Assembly (NCBI GenBank): GCA_027596075.1
Contig: JADGJC010000065.1
Coordinates: 1-64,000, forward strand
Length of the DNA: 64,000 nt
Reading direction: 5' to 3'
From: Rhizophlyctis rosea
Taxonomy: Eukaryota > Chytridiomycota > Chytridiomycetes > Rhizophlyctidales > Rhizophlyctidaceae
Made by a program: the position numbers and the translations under genes
Notes under the pieces: model-generated
What the model was told of the DNA's origin: nothing
The model's database searches: none
What the model saw: only the letters and a program-made list of their open reading frames with translations
Shown here: positions 489 to 41,003 of the stretch, one piece after another
How the letters are laid out: each line of letters opens with the position of its first letter
How positions within the stretch are numbered: position 1 is the first letter of the stretch

Positions 489-1982
489 TCATGGCTCAAC
501 AGCTGCACCGTCGTTAATCCCGGCCTTCCCGCCACTTCTCTTACCCATCCTCTCCTCCAGTACATGCGCTTCCGCGTATTTGCCCCGACGTTTATAGCAA
601 TCAAGCAGCTCTTCCATCGCAACACGTGTGTGCGGATGGTTTTCGCCCAAGGCACGGCTACATCCTTCCAGGCAAGTCACGAACAGACGCTCTGCCTGCT
701 CCAAGTTCCACTGTGAGTAATAATGGCTGGCCAAATTAAAAATCGTAATAAGGGTGTTTGGATGGTCTTCACCGAGATTCCGTTCGGCCTTTTCCCAAGC
801 ATCTAAATAGAGACTTTCCGCCATTTTCATTTTGCGTTGCCCGCGATAGACCGTGGCAAGCCCATTCATTGCAACCACTACCCAATTGTCTTGGCCCGTG
901 ACCTCTCCCATTTTGTCCAAAACATCCCGGAACAACCTTTCAGCCGTGTCGAGTTTTCCTTGCGAGGTATACAAGTGGACCACATCTACGATTGAGCTGA
1001 ACGTCTCGTCATGGAATTCCCCAAGCACCTTCTTCGTTCTCTCCAAGCGGTCCAATAACAAAATTTGAGCTTCGTCCTCTTTCCCAAGTTTTACGTAGAG
1101 TCGAGCAAGATGCCCGACGGATGTGAGCGTTTCCCGATCGTTTTCCCCACATAAGGTCTTCAGCCTCTGCACGAAATCAACCCACAGCCTTTCCGATTCC
1201 GTGTACCTTCCTCCTTCCGTGTACAACATCGCTAGATGCGCCATCGCTCTGGCTTGATCTACCCGATGCCCATCCCAGTCCATCAACGACAACCTTGATT
1301 CCGATGCTCTAATCATCCATTCTAGCAGGACCGAGGAGATGATGCGGTCTAGGGCAGGGAAGCCAATACTCTGCTGGATCGACAATTTGATAGCAATCAA
1401 ATCATCCTTTTCAGTCGCGGAGCTGTTTTCCGATTTTATGTTTAACACGGTTCGGTAAAAAGCTTCAGTACTTTCTGCGAGTGCTGAGATGGAATCTCTA
1501 GTCTCTTGAGGTGGTAGGGCGATATGGAGGTTGGAGTCGGTCTTAACGCAAGTGTACAACTCATACACACACCAAGCGCGTGTCAGGGCGAGCGGGGCGT
1601 TCCACGGCGTCAAGACCATAAGAAGGTTCGAAATGCGGGAGATGGCATCGGTGAAGGTGGTTTGCAACCAGTCCGTCGCAATTCGGCTTCGTCCGTGCTG
1701 GGGGAGGGAAAATAGGTCGAACCAAACAAAGGTATCAACGGATAAGTTCTGAACACGGAAGAAGGTAATAATTGTGTCGACGACGTCGAGGAACAGATTT
1801 TGCCAGCAGTGGCTGATGAACCATTGAGCTGGTCCAATAATGGGTGGCGTTTGGTTGGAAAGCTGCTCGCAAACAGAGACGGTGGGGTCCGCCCGAGTCT
1901 TTACGAACTTCTCGCAGACTTCGGCCGTTGTGAGATGTTGCAGATCATACCGGCCGCCGCATTGTTCGACGAATTTGTTCAA
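489..1982 (-). CDS. TIR-like domain plus kinesin-light-chain-type TPR protein (copy 1)
   Basis: The open frame is about 497 residues. Residues about 50-165 form a TIR-like fold: a first-strand motif FISHCW, then VWFDLFSLPQH, then LTRAWCVYEL, whose Glu sits where TIR NADases keep their catalytic Glu. Residues about 265-480 are five or six TPRs of the kinesin-light-chain type, with repeated GE-HP/DET-L signatures. Proteins with this order usually act as signalling or NLR-like scaffolds; that role is inference. The 5' end is unsettled. The frame stays open from a stop at 2088-2090, and residues before 1982 match the N-terminus of the second copy, but there is no in-frame ATG. The first in-frame Met lies inside the TIR-like domain, so an upstream exon is likely. 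It is paralogous to the gene at 4288-6670. Confidence 0.8.
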   Translation of the reverse strand: MNKFVEQCGGRYDLQHLTTAEVCEKFVKTRADPTVSVCEQLSNQTPPIIGPAQWFISHCWQNLFLDVVDTIITFFRVQNLSVDTFVWFDLFSLPQHGRSRIATDWLQTTFTDAISRISNLLMVLTPWNAPLALTRAWCVYELYTCVKTDSNLHIALPPQETRDSISALAESTEAFYRTVLNIKSENSSATEKDDLIAIKLSIQQSIGFPALDRIISSVLLEWMIRASESRLSLMDWDGHRVDQARAMAHLAMLYTEGGRYTESERLWVDFVQRLKTLCGENDRETLTSVGHLARLYVKLGKEDEAQILLLDRLERTKKVLGEFHDETFSSIVDVVHLYTSQGKLDTAERLFRDVLDKMGEVTGQDNWVVVAMNGLATVYRGQRKMKMAESLYLDAWEKAERNLGEDHPNTLITIFNLASHYYSQWNLEQAERLFVTCLEGCSRALGENHPHTRVAMEELLDCYKRRGKYAEAHVLEERMGKRSGGKAGINDGAAVEP

Positions 1983-1991
1983 AAATGATAG

Positions 1992-2884
1992 ACGGACACC
2001 AAGTATGGAGATGCCCTTCCGTTGCCCAGTAGTGGAATCAATTGACTGCTCTGTTGCATGCGAATGAATGGGTTTGTTTACAATGTTTCAATATGACGTC
2101 AAAACCAGAAAGACCTTACCCGGTAAGAAGTTGCCCTCTTCGGGAGACGAGCCCATATTCGCTGCCCTTTGGTCCAAGCCGATCATTATGACTCCTGGAA
2201 AGCACATAGTTAGCATATTGACAAGCACTGGCAGGACCCTACTTCATATATGAGCGGCAACCTACCTGTGCAGCTAAGAAGCTTGAGACGCGTGAGTCCG
2301 TCACAAGATAAGCCCACCTTTGTTTTCGTAAACAAACAGATCAGGTCTCGATATGGCGAACAGTCAGCCCGTGACAACAACAGAAGTAACCACTCAGTAC
2401 AGGCAAACGGAACGAGTATGTCTAGTGGCTAAGGACCTTGACACGCGTGTGAGCGCAAGTACGGCTTTCAGAACCCCTGCGTGAGGCAATAGCTTCCCTA
2501 CGTAACCATTGCAAGGGTAGCAAAAGAGATCATGTCAAAACCACCAACACACGTCCTTCAGGTCCTTCAACGCAACCCACGGTCGCACAAACATTGCACA
2601 GGCTTTGTCATCCTGTCCCAGCCCGTTCCCCAACGCAGGCCGCGGAGCATCGACGCATTAATATGGAATTTGATATGTTCACATTTCGGATGGCAATGCC
2701 TTAGGGAAAGCAATATATCGATTTGCTGTGGTGGTCACCCTTGGCATCCCGATTGGGCCCATTACGTGCAACCCCATACGAATGCCAAATCGCGACTGAT
2801 CAAAAAATGCAAACTCTGCCAACTGTTATGACACCCGATCAATGGGAAACCATTTCTTGGAAACCGAGAGGGTATGGTTCGGAA
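1992..2884. other. Intergenic, no gene seen
   Basis: This stretch lies between copy 1 of the TIR-like/TPR gene and the small lectin-like gene. It is open in short frames only. The probable missing first exon of the upstream-reading gene would lie here on the minus strand, but I could not identify it. Confidence 0.4.
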
Positions 2885-3361
2885 TTACACATAAATATCC
2901 TTTACAGAGGGAATCTCACAAACTCCAAAGCGACGATCCGTGCAAGTCCATTCCGTGACAGCCCCGTTGGCCCACAAGGACAAACAAACTCCACCTCCGT
3001 AATCGTTGCCTTCCCACGAACTCACCCAGCACGGTTTGGGAATATGACTCGCCAAATACTTCGTTTGCGCCGTGTTGCTCAACTTTGCCAACGTTCCTCC
3101 GAGGGCGATGCAACCCGATGCTGTGTTGTCGTGGGTATCGGCAGGGATGACACAATAGTACCGAGAGGCATCATTCGGACCGGGGATGGTGGAGATACAT
3201 GTGGGCGCTGGCGGTTTTGTAGTTGTGATTGTTGTCGTGGTGCTTGTTGTCGGAGCTGGACAGTTGGTCACGGTGGGAGCACAACTAGTGACGGTAATTG
3301 TTGCTTGCGAACTTGCGACCATGCAGCTGACAAGGAGGATGGTGAACTTGGTGAACCACAT
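2885..3361 (-). CDS. Small secreted C-type-lectin-like protein
   Basis: The protein has 158 residues in a single exon starting at an ATG. Residues 1-20 are a clear signal peptide (hydrophobic core, AxA-like cleavage site). Residues 35-52 are a Thr-rich linker likely to be O-glycosylated. Residues about 70-150 have the C-type lectin-like pattern: Cys84 followed by LGGTLAKL, then CW at 111-112, Cys126, and a terminal Cys140 and Cys148 in the context FGVCEI. The fold would bind sugars or proteins at the cell surface or outside the cell; the ligand cannot be read from sequence. It sits between two TIR-like/TPR genes on the same strand, which may be chance. The call rests on motif spacing, not a search. 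Confidence 0.7.
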   Translation of the reverse strand: MWFTKFTILLVSCMVASSQATITVTSCAPTVTNCPAPTTSTTTTITTTKPPAPTCISTIPGPNDASRYYCVIPADTHDNTASGCIALGGTLAKLSNTAQTKYLASHIPKPCWVSSWEGNDYGGGVCLSLWANGAVTEWTCTDRRFGVCEIPSVKDIYV

Positions 3362-4287
3362 GTTTGCGTGAAAATGAAATATGGATGAAACTTATTTCAC
3401 ACATAGATACACGTGGGAATTCTATACAAAAGTCGGTTTCTCTTGGGCACGACGCAGCATTGGAACGTGGTGAAGGTGCAATGTTCCTGAATGGGATTGG
3501 GTGAACCGCGCAAGCTCGTCCGAAGTGAAAAATTCGCTAGCTACGATCGACGTTCTGGAAGCCCCTCATTCCTGAGGCCAACAACGTTTCTGCTCCCTGG
3601 ATGGCTCCGTTCCTCCAGTAACGGAGCAGCGCCCTCCGACGTTCAAATTGTCCCTGATCGTGATCACCACACAAATACCAAATTTCTTGTTTGCCATGCT
3701 TATACAGTTGATAGCGGAGAAGCTGATGCCATTTTGAGCTCAGCAGATGCCCTTTCTGCAAACAATTCGGGGCCAATGATGCGCTTCAAAATGGAAGCTG
3801 GCATTTGGCGAATAATACAAAGACGGGGAATCAATTTATCGAACAGCGACCTGAAAATGTTGGTATGTGGTGGCATTCTACCCTTCGCTGCAAAATTACA
3901 CCAACGTACAACTGGCAACATGGTTGCGCCCATCGTCAGCTCTATCCTGGAAGGGTCTCCCAAACTAGCGAACCCCGCCCATGCACTAACCACCCACATT
4001 GATCATGTCCCACCTCCGACCGGCAGATTGAAACCCCTCCCGCGTGAGAACGACCATCGGCACATGTATTTACGGTCCGTCAACTACCATTTCCGAACAA
4101 AAACACTGGTCAAAAGAACCCGCAGCCCCCTCCTCCTCCCCCCCCCCCCCACTTCTCCCTTGTGCTAATACATTCAGCAATCCCGGCGCTTTCGTACGCG
4201 TTTTGCCCCAAGTGGTGTCACAACCACTGCCGCCGATTACTTCAAACCGTGCCATACCAATTTCCGTACGAATACATAACAGTCGTT
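3362..4287. other. Intergenic, no gene seen
   Basis: There are several overlapping open frames on both strands (the longest about 225 codons on the plus strand, from 3491), but none shows a domain, a regular codon pattern or splice-site logic. A pyrimidine tract lies at about 4130-4150. I treat it as the 3' flank of the disrupted TIR-like/TPR gene. Confidence 0.4.
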
Positions 4288-6670
4288 TCACTGCAAGAGA
4301 CAACTCCGATCGCTGGATGCTATTTCGCTCGAAGCTTCATTGCTATGTTCGGTTGCGACAGCCTGGTCATCGTCCTCGATTCCGTGTTCCTGCAAAGTGG
4401 ACCCAATGGCAGCAAGCTTCTCGGTCAGTTTGAGGACGATGGGATGGTCGGGAGAAAGGATGGTCTTGACGCGTTCCGAACAATCGACGAACAGTCTGTA
4501 TGCCAGCTGGCATTTTGCTTGGTGCATCAGGACGGCGGCGAGTTCGCAGGTGGTTTGGAGAGTAGATGGATGGTTGTCCCCGAGAGTACGTTTCCGTCCG
4601 CTCAAACAATCAATAAAGGCTCCCTCTGCTTTCAACCAATTCCGTTGCTTTGCGTACATGTCGCCCATATCGTGAACCATGCTCAAAGTTGCTGGATCGT
4701 CCTTTCCCAACACTCGAGATGCGCGTTCAATGACATCTTTGTATAAAGTCTCCGCTTCCGCATCCCGCCCCGTGCAACTATATGCCAATGCTATGTTGTC
4801 TAGCGTCGCGATCATTACTAAATGATCCGCTTCAAACGTTTGCTCCACCTTCTCCAACACCTTCAGCAACTTGCACTCCGCCTCCTCGTACTTGCCCTGC
4901 ATGCACCGTATGTATGCAAGACTCACTGACGACATCAGAATGGCCGGGTGGTCATTCTCATATATTCCTTCCACTCCCAAAACACATTCACCATACAGTG
5001 CTCCAGCAGCTGTCCAATCTCCCTCCCGACAATATAAGCTGCCCAGGCTCTGGATCGCATCGAGTGTGGTGGGATTGCTGGAGCCCAATACACGTTTGGC
5101 AGTTTGCATGCAGTGCAGCAGAATAGGCTTTGCCACCTCGTACTTTCCCTGCTCAAACTGCGACCGGCCGTAGTCCTCCATCCAAGCGATCGTCTTCTGG
5201 TCATATTCGTCCCACAACCGCCGGCATTTTCAACACAATCGGCCAACAACCGTTCAGCTTTGTCGTATCTACGCAGATTAAGGTATAAACGCCCCAGGAA
5301 GTTCGAATATCGGAGACTACGTCGATCATCTTCACCAAACACCCGATTGCTTGTCTGCACACAATACAGCAGAGGAATTTCCGCCTGCGCGTAGTTTCCC
5401 ATTCCCTCATGTGCCTGAGCTAGCCCTCAAAAAGTTCTATGGCTAACGATTCATCATCGACCGTCACCGCCTTTTTCCGTTCCGTTCTTGCCTTCCACCG
5501 CGCCAAAGACTCCAAAAAGATCGATCCCGCCGCTTTGTACTCAAGCTGTTTGAGACGCAAATAACCGAGTTGCGCCATCACACTGATTGTCGTAAAGTGT
5601 TCTTCTCCAAAGATCCGTCGTGTCCGTGCCAGATTATCCAGGAGGAGCGGCTCCGCCCTTTGACAGTCTCCCTCATTGAACAGTGCAACCCCTAAATTCG
5701 CCCCACATTTCATTGTATCAAAATGATCTGTTCCCAAAACCCGCTGTCGAATTTCAAGGTACGTCGTCAACAAAGGCGCGGCCTTATCAAACGATTCCAT
5801 GCTGAAATGCAGCATTCCCAAAGTGTCCAGCCATCCAGCATATTCTTCCTGATCCTCCTTGCCGCTCGTGATATGAACGTGATCTTCAAGCACGCTGACC
5901 ATCCACGCAGATAGAAGGGATGAGACCATCCGGTCAAGCATTTCAAAGCCAACACTCTCACGGATAGCTCCATGGATGCTCAACAAATCACCCTTCTCCG
6001 TCGCGATGCTGTTCTTTGACTTTATTGATGCAATGGCTTGTCGGAACGCATTTGTGTTGCTTGGGCTGGCGAAACATTCGCGGAATATGGGGGCTTCCGA
6101 AGGTGGAAGGGCGATGTTAAAGGACGATTTGGTATGAACGCAGGCGAAGAGTTCGAACACGCACCAGGCGCGGGTTAGAGTAAGGGGTTGATTCCAGGGC
6201 GTGAGGATCATCAGCATGTTGCGGATGTGGGCGATAGCGTCGATAAAGGTCGTTTGCAGCCAATCGCTAGCGATCTTGCTGCGGCCATGTTGCGGGAGAG
6301 AAAAGATGTCGATCCAGATGATGGGTTCCGGCTCCGTCTCCGATAGCGCCTTGCCCTCAAAGTAGGATGTGATGGCGTCCACAGTATCAAGAAACACGTA
6401 TTGCCAGCAGTGGCTAATGAATAGATTCGCCGTGGTTATTCCATTCGCAGGGTCGGACAGGAGGTGGTCGCATATTGAGATGGACCGGTTGGTACGGCGG
6501 ATGATAAATTGTTCGCAAACTTGAGCCGTTGTCAAACTCCATAGCTTAGCCCTACCACCGCATTCGGCGATGAAGACTTGCAAGAAAGACACTGGGACAC
6601 CGAGAAGGGGCAGATTCATTGATGTGGAAGGTCCGGTTTGGGAGAGGTTCGGAATATCAGCAGCGAGCAT
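4288..6670 (-). CDS. TIR-like/TPR protein (copy 2), two frameshifts
   Basis: This is the tandem paralogue of the gene at 489-1982. From ATG 6670 the first frame gives 416 residues: an N-terminal leader, the TIR-like domain (IWIDIFSLPQH, LTRAWCVFEL) and the first TPRs, ending at a stop near 5420. TPR sequence resumes without loss in a second frame (about 5437 to 5217) and in a third (5217 to 4288). At each junction the protein similarity runs straight through and one extra base would restore the frame, so neither break looks like an intron. Either the gene has decayed recently or the assembly lost single bases at two short homopolymers. The final frame holds about 7 more TPRs and a Glu/Ser-rich tail. 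The role is inferred to match copy 1: a TIR-like signalling scaffold. Confidence 0.75.
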
Positions 6671-8105
6671 GAGGTCTGAAACGAAGCTGAGGCATAATAG
6701 GTGGAGGACGTGATGACTGTGACCTGGCCGGATCTAGGTATCTGCTAAAACCATGGTCAGACAGTAAATCCTCTCCGAATACATTGAAAAGTAAACTCAC
6801 TTTGTCACAAGCGCAACCTTGAACGCTGTTCAGCTTACGGCTTGACCGCTCGTCGCTGTCGCTTTTATCCGCTTGGATGTTGCAGAACGCGCTGACGTGA
6901 GCGTTGGTGGAAAGCACCATCAAGAAGTTGTTGAGGCGTCAACCTGCAGAAGTTGCACACTATTCTCGCGGGACTATGTCAATCCAGATTGCTGAGAAGA
7001 TTAAGGGAAACAGTTTGACAAGGTTGAAATTTGACCGGGTTGCCGTTGTGAGACTGTGAGACTGGTGCCACCGTGCCCACAAACTTTTGTGTAACGCTGG
7101 TGAAACGTGAGCTGTCTTTGAATGCAAATTGAAGTTGACCTCGAAATCAAGGAATGCCTGTGGCATCTGTAAGCGGCGTATAATGACATGTACCCAGTGT
7201 TGGCGGCTTTGCCAAAGCGAGCCAGCCAACCCATCGTCGAACGTGAACCAATTTAATCGAGTAATCAGGGTCAGTGTCATGCCGGAGTGTGAGCCGATGA
7301 GCCGACCGTAAAAGTACAACCATACTCATGGAGTGCCGGAACTCGAAGGGAAGGTGGTCATTTTGATGGTTACTTAGTCCTTCACTTTGGGTCCTTCACT
7401 TTAGGTTGGTTTGTTAGTCTCGGCCGGAGCACTTGTGGCGTTGGACCGGGCCAAGTGGCTTAGCCATCAAAAGCACCGCCCGCACAATCAAAACCGAAAG
7501 ACCGATGTCGCATCGCATCACATCTTCCCCCTATTCGAGATAGGCAAGGTCAATACTCGAACGGAAGGAGACGGCCTGTTCCTGACCATCTCAGTTGCGC
7601 CTTCATTCGCAAGGGGGAAAAGCAATACCGATGTGGTCTTCGCTTACAACTTACATTGTCTTTTCGTGCGGACATATGCTGTTCACTTCATGCCAGCCAA
7701 ACCCACGGAGCTCCATGCCCCCAAGCCTTACTGAGTGCAGATGATCCTTCCACTGATAAATAGTATTGGAAGGGACTGCTCAAAACTCCTTGGACACTCT
7801 CAAACTTTTTGAGTATGTTATGGTTGCCCACCGTAGCACAAGGCCAAGACCTTCGATTGACTTGAAGGTTGCCTGCCCTCGCCCAACCATGCGGCTCGTG
7901 AATTTGCCTGAAGCCGCGCCAGATTCGTTCTGACGCGTAGGACAAGCTCTGGCCGTCCCTTATTTTTGTTATTTTCAACAGAGTCCCTTCCAGCTCCGCC
8001 TGCTCCGCTCCAAACTCTAACGTTCCCGCAGCTGGTGGTCAAAATATATAAAATGAGGCCACATGTGCGAGTACTTGCCAACCCAGGCACATTCCGAACG
8101 CAAGA
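6671..8105. other. Intergenic between TIR-like/TPR copy 2 and the protease gene
   Basis: Only short overlapping frames are present, with no domain recognised. It serves as the shared upstream region of two divergent genes: the TIR-like/TPR gene on the minus strand and the aspartic-protease-like gene on the plus strand. Confidence 0.4.
8044..8053 (+). promoter_or_regulatory. Probable TATA box of the aspartic-protease-like gene
   Basis: TATATAAAA lies about 55-60 nt upstream of the ATG at 8106, in the position expected for a TATA element with a short 5' leader. This is inferred from sequence and position only. Confidence 0.4.
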
Positions 8106-35731: not shown

Positions 35732-37453
35732 TCAAGAAGATTGAGCCTCAACTGATATATTCGTGGCATTGATCTCGAAGGAAATCAAAGGAAGTCGAAT
35801 GAATACGGCGTCCGGCTGGACTGACAGACTGCAAATTTCATGGAACAGCGTTGCGGTGAGCGGCTGCTCAAGAACATTTTGGAGGCTGCGTGCAGCTGGC
35901 CAACCAGAGTTGTCCGTCAGCCAGCGCTCCAGGACTCTGCCCAGGAACACGTTGGAGGATGCAGCTCTCTGCAAACTCTTCACCAAACGCCTTTCAGCTT
36001 TCGATGCTGCCTGTTCAGCTTCTTCATTGGTGCAATCCAGGAGGAACTGGGCGCGCCCACCACCGCCCCGCAAACGTACAATCAGGTGGACGACTGAATC
36101 AGGCTTTATCCCATAGTCCCCCAAGGAGAAGGCATCACTGAGTTGCAGTCCACCATGGATGAGCCTTTGATGGTCGGGAGGTAGTCCTTCTGTTTCCTGG
36201 ATCAACACTTTCAAATCCTTCACCGTCGTGGCACTGCTCACGGACACGAAGCATTCTTTCCCATAGAGGGTTTTGACTAGTAATTCGGTTTTCTCATTAG
36301 CCAGCGAGGACTGCGGAATGCAGCGAACTTGATGCTCACCGGATATAGAAAAGTCATCTTGGCCCACGTCAATCCTTTCCTTGATGTGGCGGATGGTTGG
36401 GGCACGTATTCGGGCAAGCTCTCACCAACTGGGTTTCCACCGTTCCTTCCACGGAGTCACATGATCGCAGATCTATATACCTGCATAGTTTGTCGTCCGA
36501 GATTAGATTTCAGAGAACGAGAAGCCCATTTAGCGCTCGCAAACTTACGTTGAGTCGGAGAGGAGAAACCCAATGCTGGAAATTTGCCACTCCTGCTCGG
36601 CCTGGGATGTGGGCGCCGCGCCGACTTCACATTTGGGATTCATCAACAATGCCCGGAGCCAAAGACCGTTTAAACGCAAACATTCATAAATACAAACCAA
36701 GAAGTGGTATGACAAATAGGTTTCGCGCCATGGCAAATGTAAACTCGCGTTTGCTGTGAATACATGTTGCCAGTCCCCGAGGTGATGCAAATTAACAGCC
36801 ACAGTCAATGCACAAACCAGTTTACGCTGCAGGCGTACTCATCGCTGATGCAAGCAACAACACAGTGTGCTAGTCAAGCAACTCAACCTTAGCTTCCACC
36901 GGTGAGATTCATCAACATCAAAAGGGCTTTGAAACCCACCTTGTTTCGCCAGAGCATATGCCAATTGATCGAAAATTGGCACCCCTCCCGGCATCTTTTC
37001 GATATCCAGCCAAACCGCCCACCCTCGATCCTTTAGAAAGCGGGCTATGTCGCGCGGGTCGCATCTGCAGACAAGTATCCATATGCGAATTTTGTCACCA
37101 GGCAGACCTTTTCGGTAGAAGAGTGCAGCCCAACTGTCGAATCCATACCTTCCAATTGCATCTTCTGGTTTGCACGCGTCGGAAGAGTTGGCCCACGCAT
37201 AACTGACAAAAACATACGGCTTGATATTGTATGATAGTAAAATCTGTTGTTCCTCTTTCGTAAACTCTCGGTGATCGGAAGTGTTTGTACCAGCTGGGAA
37301 GCCATCCCTGAGGTTGACGTCGACGTTAGAGAGAAGTGAGGTAGTGCGCTGCCGTTTTGTATTCCGCTCCCGATTCTTCTTCTTCTTCGTCAGGAATGAA
37401 AAACAATTGAAGGCCATATTGACCATGAGTAGCGGGTTGCGAAGAACGGGCAT
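35732..37453 (-). CDS. TIR domain fused to a ubiquitin-like domain
   Basis: Seven exons on the minus strand: 37453-37149, 37064-36940, 36869-36818, 36753-36698, 36624-36549, 36480-36426 and 36379-35732. They give 438 residues, in phase throughout. Residues 1-75 are basic then polar. Residues about 79-210 are a TIR domain: PYVFVSYAWAN, DPRDIARFLKDRGWAVWLD, VVACISDEYACSVNC, then Glu164 where TIR NADases keep the catalytic Glu, and a GFLLSDSTYIDL end. Residues about 254-331 align with ubiquitin at roughly half of positions by eye. They keep the Leu8 and Ile44 surface equivalents, Lys6, Lys11, Lys27 and LRGG, but lose Lys29, 33, 48 and 63. A tail of about 107 residues follows. The ubiquitin-like exon has no ATG of its own. 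If the tail is removed after the Gly pair, a conjugatable TIR-ubiquitin-like protein would result (inference). An earlier 5' exon is possible. Confidence 0.8.
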
Positions 37454-38280: not shown

Positions 38281-41003
38281 ATGTTGGGCTTAAGTTCATC
38301 CAGTGGTAAGACTGCGTCTTCCCACGCCTTGAACCGTTGACGCGGGTCCCTAACGCCGGTTACCAACAGAAACCGCCTGGTTGCGTATGACCATCCTGTC
38401 CCTGGTGGCCATTCTTGCGTTTGTCTCTCGTCTTTTCTCTGTCATCCGATTCGGTAGGTTTTTATCAATTGGATTTGAGGGGAAGCAGCCATTTATAACT
38501 CCTCCCCCACAGAGAGTGTCATTCACGAATTCGACCCATGGTTCAACTACCGTACAACTATTGAGCTTGTTGAAAATGGCTTTTACGATTTTGTCAACTG
38601 GTAAGCACAGGCAGCTGGACTCACGCGTATGCAAAGAGACTGATATGGGCATTCCAGGTTTGATGAGCTATCATGGTACCCATTGGGCCGTGTCGTTGGT
38701 GGAACAGTGTACCCAGGGATTATGGTCACAGCCGCTTTGATCCACAAATTCCTCACCACCCTCAATTTCCCCATTCATATCCGAGAAGTTTGTGTGTTCT
38801 TGGCACCTCTCTTCTCCGGCTTCACCGCGATCGCAGCATACCTCTTAACCACGGAAATGAAGGACCCCGCCGCAGGCCTCCTGGCCGCCGCTTTCATCGG
38901 CATTGCACCGGGGTACATTTCCCGATCCGTTGCCGGCTCATACGACAACGAAGGAATTGCCATTTTCCTCCTTGTCTTCACTTTCTGGCTGTGGATCAAA
39001 GCGCTCAAACTCGGGTCTGCCTTCTACGGAACGTTGACCGCTTTGTTCTACTTCTGGATGGTGTCCGCATGGGGTGGATATGTCTTCATTACCAACTTGA
39101 TCCCGCTTCATGCTTTTGCTCTCATCCTCATGGGACGTTTCTCATCACGTCTTTATGTTTCGTACTCCACATTCTACGTCATCGGTACGCTGTCCTCCAT
39201 GCAGATTCCATTCGTGGGTTTCCAGCCCACCAGGACGAGCGAACACATGGCCGCACTTGGTAAGCTGAATCCATTTGATACTTGTCCAATCTCACACACT
39301 GATCGGGACCCTAGGCATTTTCGGCCTGCTCCAAATCATCGCGTTCGTGGAGCTCGTAAGGAGCCATCTGTCTGCCAATCAATTCAAATCGCTCTTCCAG
39401 GGGTTGATTATGGGCTTTTTCCTGCTCGGTCTTGCGGCATTGGTCGGTTTGACTTTCAGCGGCTATGTAGCGCCTTGGACTGGTCGTTTCTACTCTCTCT
39501 GGGACACTGGTTACGCGAAGAAGTACATTCCTATCATTGCGTCCGTGTCTGAACATCAGCCGACTGCTTGGCCGTCGTTCTTCTTTGACTTGCAACTTCT
39601 CATGCCGTTGTTCCCGGCTGGAGTGTATCTTTGCTTCAAGGTTTGTCAGTAGCACTTACGCCATTCATTCATATGTCCATTAATTAACATGGATAATCTA
39701 GGAATTAAGGGATGAGCACGTCTTTGTGGTTCGTGTTGTTGTTTGATGTTGGCAAGGATTGAGGCATTGTCTGATAAGCATTCGACAGATCCTCTACGCG
39801 GTCACAGCATCATATTTCTCCGGCGTCATGGTCCGTTTGATGTTGACTCTCACCCCGATCGTATGCGTTGCAGCCGCTGTGGCAGCCTCCAAACTCTTTG
39901 ACATCTACTTGGCCAATTCCGGTCCTGCGCCAGTCGTTGCCACTACAACTGAGAAAGACTTAAAGCACATTAAGGAGAAAGCACCAAAGAAGAAGGAAAG
40001 CCGCTTCGGCATCTGGTCCTCAGACAGCAAAATTGCCGTCATCCTCCCCATGGCCCTCGTCCTCACCGTCTTCGCCTGGCACTGCACCTGGGTAACCTCC
40101 AACGCCTACTCCAGCCCCTCCATCGTCCTCGCCTCCCGCGGCCGCGACGGGTCGCAAGTTATCATCGACGACTTCCGTGAAGCATACTACTGGCTCCGTC
40201 AAAACACCGACGAAAAAGCCAAGATCCTTGCATGGTGGGACTACGGGTACCAAATCACCGGCATGTCAAACCGCACGGTCTTGGTCGACAACAACACGTG
40301 GAACAACACCCACATCGCCACGGTCGGGAAAGCCATGGCGTGTTCCGAAGATGTTGCGTACGAAGTCATGCGTAAACTTGATGTCGACTACGTCCTCGTT
40401 ATCTTCGGCGGAGCGATCGGCTACTCCGGCGACGACATCAACAAGTTCTTGTGGATGATTCGTATTGGGGAAGGCGTGTACCCGAATGATATTAGTGAGC
40501 GGAACTTCTTCACGGATCGTGGGGAGTATAGGATTGATGATGAGGCTAGCCCGACGATGAAGAATAGTCTTTTGTATAAGATGAGTTATTATAGGTTCAA
40601 TGATCTTTTTGGGGGGAAGCCTGGGTATGATTCGGTTCGGGGGAGTTATGTTAGTACGAAGCCGATTAAGCTTCATACTATTGAGGAAGGTGGGTTTTTG
40701 GGTTTGATTTGTGAGGTTGGTAGGGGTTATGGATGGGCTGGTTCTGATGGATTGTTTTTTTTTTCCTCTAGCTTACTCGACGGAGAGTTACATTGTTCGA
40801 ATCTATCAAGTGAAGAAGCCGGATAACCTGGGGAGGTCTCTTTCTGCTGCTTCCACGTGAGTTTTCGGGTTTTGTGCTTGCGGTTGGTTTTCTGTTTTGG
40901 TGTGATTGAGCTCATATGATTTTGCAATGCTAGGTTCGGAAAGAAGCGTAAGAGACGGTCACGCAAGCCGGCTGGGGCGAAGGGGAAGAAGGTTCGTGGG
41001 TGA
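38281..41003 (+). CDS. STT3: STT3, catalytic subunit of oligosaccharyltransferase
   Basis: Nine exons: 38281-38305, 38370-38453, 38513-38600, 38658-39259, 39315-39640, 39702-39728, 39789-40689, 40772-40856 and 40934-41003. They give 735 residues, close to the usual size. It transfers the lipid-linked glycan to Asn in N-X-S/T sequons in the ER lumen. Seen: [14 protein letters not shown] in the first luminal loop (catalytic, metal-binding), [35 protein letters not shown], and the signature WWDYGYQI near 533 followed by DNNTWNNTH. There are about a dozen membrane spans before it. The C-terminus is very basic (KKRKRRSRK), facing the lumen. The first 25-nt exon is my choice: it restores an N-terminus [12 protein letters not shown] before the first span. 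A later ATG at 38387 would also work but leaves the span without a leader. Confidence 0.95.

Follow-up and report, generated by a model that had tools for sequence, protein, structure and literature searches.

A Rhizophlyctis rosea gene predicted to join a TIR domain to an internal ubiquitin-like domain ending in LRGG

We analysed a window of 64,000 nucleotides (G000:C573:1-64000) from the 44.1 Mb assembly of Rhizophlyctis rosea, which consists of 634 contigs. On the minus strand, between 37453 and 35732, lies a gene of seven exons that have GT-AG borders and join in phase (Table 1). The sequence-only reading had proposed that these exons form one protein, and the splice borders bear this out, with the qualification that the last acceptor is ambiguous. 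As far as the last junction, the exon structure can be read directly; for the gene as a whole, the sequence supports a predicted fusion of a TIR domain with a ubiquitin-like domain (UBL) as the simplest model. The first ATG of the open frame in exon 1 is at 37453, and a start further upstream is possible. An STT3 oligosaccharyltransferase gene (38644-40826, plus strand) adjoins the TIR-UBL gene. Elsewhere in the window, at 492-6733 on the minus strand, TPR repeats above their cut-offs occur in three frames; this region also has nephrocystin-3-type TPR matches under the cut-off and is possibly part of an NLR-like gene.

Table 1. Features of the TIR-UBL gene, in window coordinates
Feature	Position	Strand	Remarks
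Exon 1	37149..37453	-	variable N-terminus and start of the TIR (VFVSYAW box)
Exon 2	36940..37064	-	CDPR motif and WLDIEKMPGG region
Exon 3	36818..36869	-	CISDEYACSVN; split Cys codon TG/C at its end
Exon 4	36698..36753	-	CKREF, including Glu164, a catalytic-type Glu
Exon 5	36549..36624	-	EWQISSIGFLLSDS
Exon 6	36426..36480	-	YIDLR, then the rest of the TIR C-terminal part
Exon 7, two options	36379-35732 (438 aa) or 36310-35732 (415 aa)	-	
Intron 6	36311..36425	-	115 nt, acceptor CCGCAG; in-phase alternatives of 46, 91 and 133 nt
Ubiquitin-like domain	36062..36289	-	76 codons, LRGG at the end
C-terminal tail	35732..36061	-	109 codons and stop; coding weakly supported; no relatives found

The junction between exons 3 and 4 builds a Cys-x-x-Glu motif, reading SVNCKREF across the splice. 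We accepted this junction because paralogues in the same genome have introns of the same position and phase. An intron in the split Cys codon before x-x-Glu is common to six of the seven paralogues tested, where it measures 61-97 nt; the exception, locus L040, lacks a clean GT donor there. In another three paralogues (C333, C12 and C9) the motif is uninterrupted by an intron, so that the split-Cys intron is found in six of the ten paralogues looked at. Another donor, GTAAAC after exon 3, was rejected, since with it either the reading frame is disrupted or the catalytic Glu drops out, and since the paralogues show the TG/C intron.

The choice of acceptor at the exon 6/7 junction is ambiguous, and this counts against the interpretation that we favour below. 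The donor that follows exon 6, GTGAGA, is in phase with four usable acceptors (giving introns of 46, 91, 115 and 133 nt), and the TIR and the UBL fall in one frame with any of them; a fifth in-phase AG, 7 nt past the donor, is too close for use. Among the four candidates only the 115-nt intron, which leads to a protein of 415 residues, ends in CAG. Seven other introns, of 57 to 84 nt, serve as comparison (the remaining five in the TIR-UBL gene and, identified by eye, two in STT3), and five of the seven have this same ending. The 46-nt intron yields a 438-residue model that fits the residue numbering of the sequence-only reading, and Glu is at residue 164 in both models.

Pfam TIR_2 matched residues 106-211 of the 415-residue model (profile positions 14-110 of 122) with 52.2 bits against a cut-off of 28 (1.1e-13). 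At E <= 1 the only Pfam families in this model were TIR_2 and those of ubiquitin type; ARM, SAM, NACHT and NB-ARC gave no match at that threshold. We aligned nine TIR domains from the genome, the window TIR included, with their exons joined by hand. The window TIR is 28-41% identical to the other eight, and twelve columns of the alignment are invariant. Among these are Cys and Glu in the CxxE motif, as well as Trp and Asp in WLD. The earlier claim of a TIR with Glu164 as candidate catalytic residue is upheld by the TIR_2 score and by the invariance of this Glu in all nine domains. A profile made from the nine matched 28 distinct PDB sequences at E <= 0.01, with CRISPR-associated Cat1 (3.3e-09) and TLR, plant, bacterial and SARM1 TIR structures among them; as a single sequence, the window TIR gave weak PDB matches, the best at E 0.031. 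A tree of the nine TIRs has no well-supported branch and does not place the window gene. The Glu of Cys-x-x-Glu type has an established catalytic role in other TIRs, and we infer that the window TIR, as a predicted effector, would consume NAD or form scaffolds.

The ubiquitin-like part was matched by Pfam ubiquitin (PF00240) at residues 233-304 of the 415-residue model, over the full profile (1-72 of 72) and with no gap, at 71.5 bits against a cut-off of 25.4 (4.9e-20). LRGG occupies residues 303-306 and sets the di-Gly at ubiquitin positions 75-76, in agreement with the gap-free alignment and intact LRGG end that had been read from the sequence. The domain shares 36 of its 76 residues with human ubiquitin, again without a gap, and 37 with an R. 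rosea ubiquitin on C393. It retains Leu8, Ile44 and His68 (with Val70 replaced by Ile), and Arg42, Arg72, Leu73, Arg74, Gly75 and Gly76 (with Leu71 replaced by Val). The alignment to human ubiquitin also shows the pattern of lysines noted earlier, in which Lys6, Lys11 and Lys27 are retained and Lys48 and Lys63 are lost, to Leu and Pro respectively; Lys29 has become Leu and Lys33 Thr. A beta-grasp fold is implied by homology, on which this assignment rests because AlphaFold, run on exon 7 as a single sequence with no alignment, gave a model of low confidence that tells nothing of the fold (mean pLDDT 45.1). Not one Met occurs in exon 7, and its translation would therefore require a start upstream.

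Past Gly76 the frame continues for 109 residues, made up of GG and then 107 more. The earlier reading recognised nothing in this tail, and the searches agree: no Pfam family was above its cut-off, no exon 7 match elsewhere in the genome extends more than about 12 residues beyond Gly76, and the UBL and tail, searched together, gave no hit in the protein collection (233 candidates of limited length, E <= 0.001). We regard a coding tail as possible. When its last 108 codons were shuffled by single bases 2000 times, 1.2% of the shuffles were stop-free. Its codon usage score of 0.005 is matched by 44.6% of 2918 open non-coding frames, in a test that has little power because the N-terminal part of exon 1 fares no better (-0.002). 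AlphaFold of the tail alone, as a single sequence, gave four helices followed by four strands, but at a confidence too low to be informative (mean pLDDT 59.5, pTM 0.46).

The TIR_2 profile matched 23 places in the genome, 20 of them above the cut-off, and the window TIR as a query gave eight more loci, itself among them. R. rosea has at least 31 TIR places (loci L009-L045), some of which may be haplotype copies. Reading downstream of the TIR in ten paralogues, we found Sel1 or ankyrin repeats in five, with Sel1 on C2, C11, C187 and C279 and ankyrin on C333. On C12, where four pieces of the deposited protein HDV00_000607 can be read at locus L036, the TIR forms the end of that protein, and the downstream frames on C335, C9 and for two paralogues on C102 showed no repeat behind the TIR. 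NACHT was found at nine places, seven of which are preceded, at no more than 2.3 kb and on the same strand, by a TIR place (C75, C301, C398, C375, C149, C285 and C491); the TIR on C149 is below the cut-off, and on C491 the TIR and NACHT share a single open frame. On C57 a long N-terminal region without a Pfam match precedes the TIR. Viewed alongside these genes, the window gene appears to add a further pairing to a TIR repertoire of mixed and matched domains. The genome searches also returned 20 Zn2Cys6 places, and five matches to the flagellar family IFT46_B_C on C4 and C238, which are paralogues or haplotype copies; both findings suit a zoosporic fungus.

TIR-NLRs in Chytridiomycota are mentioned in a passage of PMC9815663, and an older survey, PMC4986451, records that NLRs were not found in chytrids. 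PMC6040629 describes choanoflagellate TIRs fused with ankyrin, armadillo and SH2 domains. Passages of a 2026 TIR atlas (PMC13142454) report that EukProt yielded fungal TIRs from one species and InterPro yielded none, and state that very few had been reported earlier.

The DNA of exon 7 occurs once in the genome. Comparison of the TIR places with 46 ubiquitin-family places, both lists being lower bounds, showed the two close together only in the window; the next closest pair, on C279, is about 16.5 kb apart. Among the ubiquitin-like proteins of the genome are four divergent ones (C34, C1, C605 and C318; loci L057, L059, L062 and L066) that end in GC before the stop, Cys taking the position of Gly76. 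Five frames (L052, L055, L007, L056 and L058) have an internal ubiquitin domain, with LRGG in four of the five, followed by what appears by eye as FVDL...APRWR...GL..EG.C. A RING match on C290 is under its cut-off.

With the fusion as a protein query, no match was found at E <= 0.001 among 6503 candidates of limited length, which is weak evidence of absence since these protein searches are insensitive: ubiquitins themselves were not returned. The own-genome TIR profile gave five hits in the protein collection, R. rosea included. The others, from Cladochytrium tenue, Nowakowskiella sp., Chytridium lagenaria and the alga Rhodomonas salina, are proteins of 112-253 residues with TIR families only in their Pfam lists and, as deposited, with no TIR-UBL fusion. 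In the literature searched, which takes in a minority of subscription papers, we found no eukaryotic protein combining a TIR with a ubiquitin-like domain, and the relevant passages of PMC7075850, PMC10197012, PMC12881547, PMC3710099 and PMC8195603 contain no such layout; within that scope, the earlier view that the arrangement is undescribed still stands.

The fusion itself has to be weighed against a model in which the protein consists of the TIR alone and terminates within intron 6, and the UBL belongs to a gene of its own or is a relic. With intron 6 retained, translation would run 18 codons beyond exon 6 before a stop after QGKD and produce just such a protein; moreover, splicing of two tiny ATG exons to exon 7 is formally conceivable, and no such fusion came from a protein collection in which R. 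rosea is represented by at least HDV00_000607. However, exon 7 has no Met and yet encodes a complete, gap-free UBL, the GTGAGA donor is in phase with four acceptors, and a separate UBL gene would presumably need a promoter within the TIR gene. We therefore consider the unfused model unlikely and retain, despite the two ATG exons, the earlier judgement that the UBL exon is hardly a gene of its own. Another way to view the 18-residue end and its stop is as the product of regulated intron 6 retention, by which one gene would give TIR-only and TIR-UBL forms. The 115-nt intron, with its CAG acceptor, is indeed longer than each of the five remaining ones in the gene, but an early stop would give this picture in any intron, and we think such regulation very unlikely.

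If the domains are fused, LRGG could act as a processing signal: a deubiquitinase would cut after it, and the exposed Gly76 would let E1, E2 and E3 enzymes attach the TIR-UBL, as an NADase, covalently. LRGG is intact, and Arg42, Arg72, Ile44, His68, Gly75 and Gly76 are all retained. We also scored UBLs at 14 ubiquitin positions that we take to be E1 or deubiquitinase contacts, at which the window UBL is identical to ubiquitin in 11 cases against 25 of 62 positions elsewhere (hypergeometric P 0.01). A bacterial analogue, with a Ubl and an effector-recruiting adaptor domain (EAD1) in a longer protein, is proposed in PMC7159879. On the other side, C1 (ending in GGC) and C605 (ending in CGC) also match at 11 of the 14 contacts without a di-Gly end, so the contact count alone fails to single out a conjugated modifier, although with 29 and 33 identities at the 62 non-contact positions they are somewhat less contact-biased than the window UBL. 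The remaining scores, out of 14, were 11 for C164, 9 for C34, 6 for C157 and 14 for both C290 and C56. Nor is LRGG alone proof of cleavage, because the UBLs on C290, C56 and C106 lie within longer frames and keep LRGG with an extra Gly after it. The earlier proposal of cleavage and conjugation thus gains no specific support; conjugation of the TIR via LRGG is possible, and we judge a pro-modifier of this kind rather improbable. Its extension to immunity, in which the ubiquitin cascade would direct NAD consumption by attaching the TIR NADase to chosen proteins or membranes, appears distinctly improbable. A cut after LRGG might also serve to free the tail as a separate polypeptide, and a UBL followed by GG and 107 residues does resemble ubiquitin-ribosomal fusions in outline. 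The tail, however, has neither a family above cut-off nor codon-usage support, and the UBL is not N-terminal, which leaves this carboxyl-extension logic with scarcely any probability.

We favour the reading that a single R. rosea gene encodes a TIR effector whose ubiquitin-like domain stays uncleaved and serves for docking within the same chain, and give this reading about even odds. An uncleaved domain is preferred because LRGG also occurs in other internal UBLs of the genome and because the UBL stands where several paralogues have interaction repeats. The TIR would be an NAD-consuming or scaffold-forming member of the large R. rosea repertoire, and the UBL a docking or regulatory module at the place taken in paralogues by Sel1 or ankyrin repeats. 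Its Leu8-Ile44-His68 face could bring the TIR to ubiquitin receptors, E3 ligases or deubiquitinases, and docking of this kind would control the location, assembly or turnover of the TIR. The fusion is presumably expressed. Against the docking reading stand the single copy of the gene, the lack of any relative in the searches, the five of ten paralogues in which no repeat was shown, and the three in which no intron interrupts Cys-x-x-Glu.

TIR domains and ubiquitin are both central switches of immunity and cell death, and are usually linked via separate adaptors. The significance of a TIR and a UBL on one chain is that it would make this link direct and testable; the gene, moreover, belongs to a lineage of fungi for which few TIRs are on record.

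Compared with the TIR-Sel1, TIR-ankyrin and TIR-NACHT genes of R. rosea, the window gene has a related TIR, the split-Cys intron (shared by six of seven) and the same placing of the TIR before a second module, but in those genes the second module is Sel1, ankyrin or NPHP3_N/NACHT and not a UBL. The 415-residue model lacks the nucleotide-binding domain of a TIR-NLR such as TIR-NACHT. With the TIR NADases SARM1 and those of plants and bacteria it shares a TIR recognisable by profile and a catalytic-type Glu after Cys-x-x, whereas the ARM and SAM domains of SARM1 are absent. The R. rosea frames on C290, C56 and C106 are alike in having a UBL inside a longer frame, with LRGG and an extra Gly, but differ in continuing into the FVDL...APRWR...GL..EG.C region, and those on C290 and C56 have no TIR match. 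The carboxyl-extension proteins eS31 and eL40 likewise have an extension after LRGG; their ubiquitin, however, is N-terminal and nearly invariant, whereas the window UBL is internal, has no start Met of its own and matches human ubiquitin at the 36 of 76 positions given above. Finally, the bacterial FtsH-ternary EAD1-Ubl proteins, which passages of PMC7159879 propose to recruit effectors to conjugated targets, resemble the window gene in joining a Ubl to an effector-recruiting module within a longer protein, but they have their own E1, E2, E3 and JAB components and carry EAD1 rather than a TIR, so the likeness is one of analogy only.
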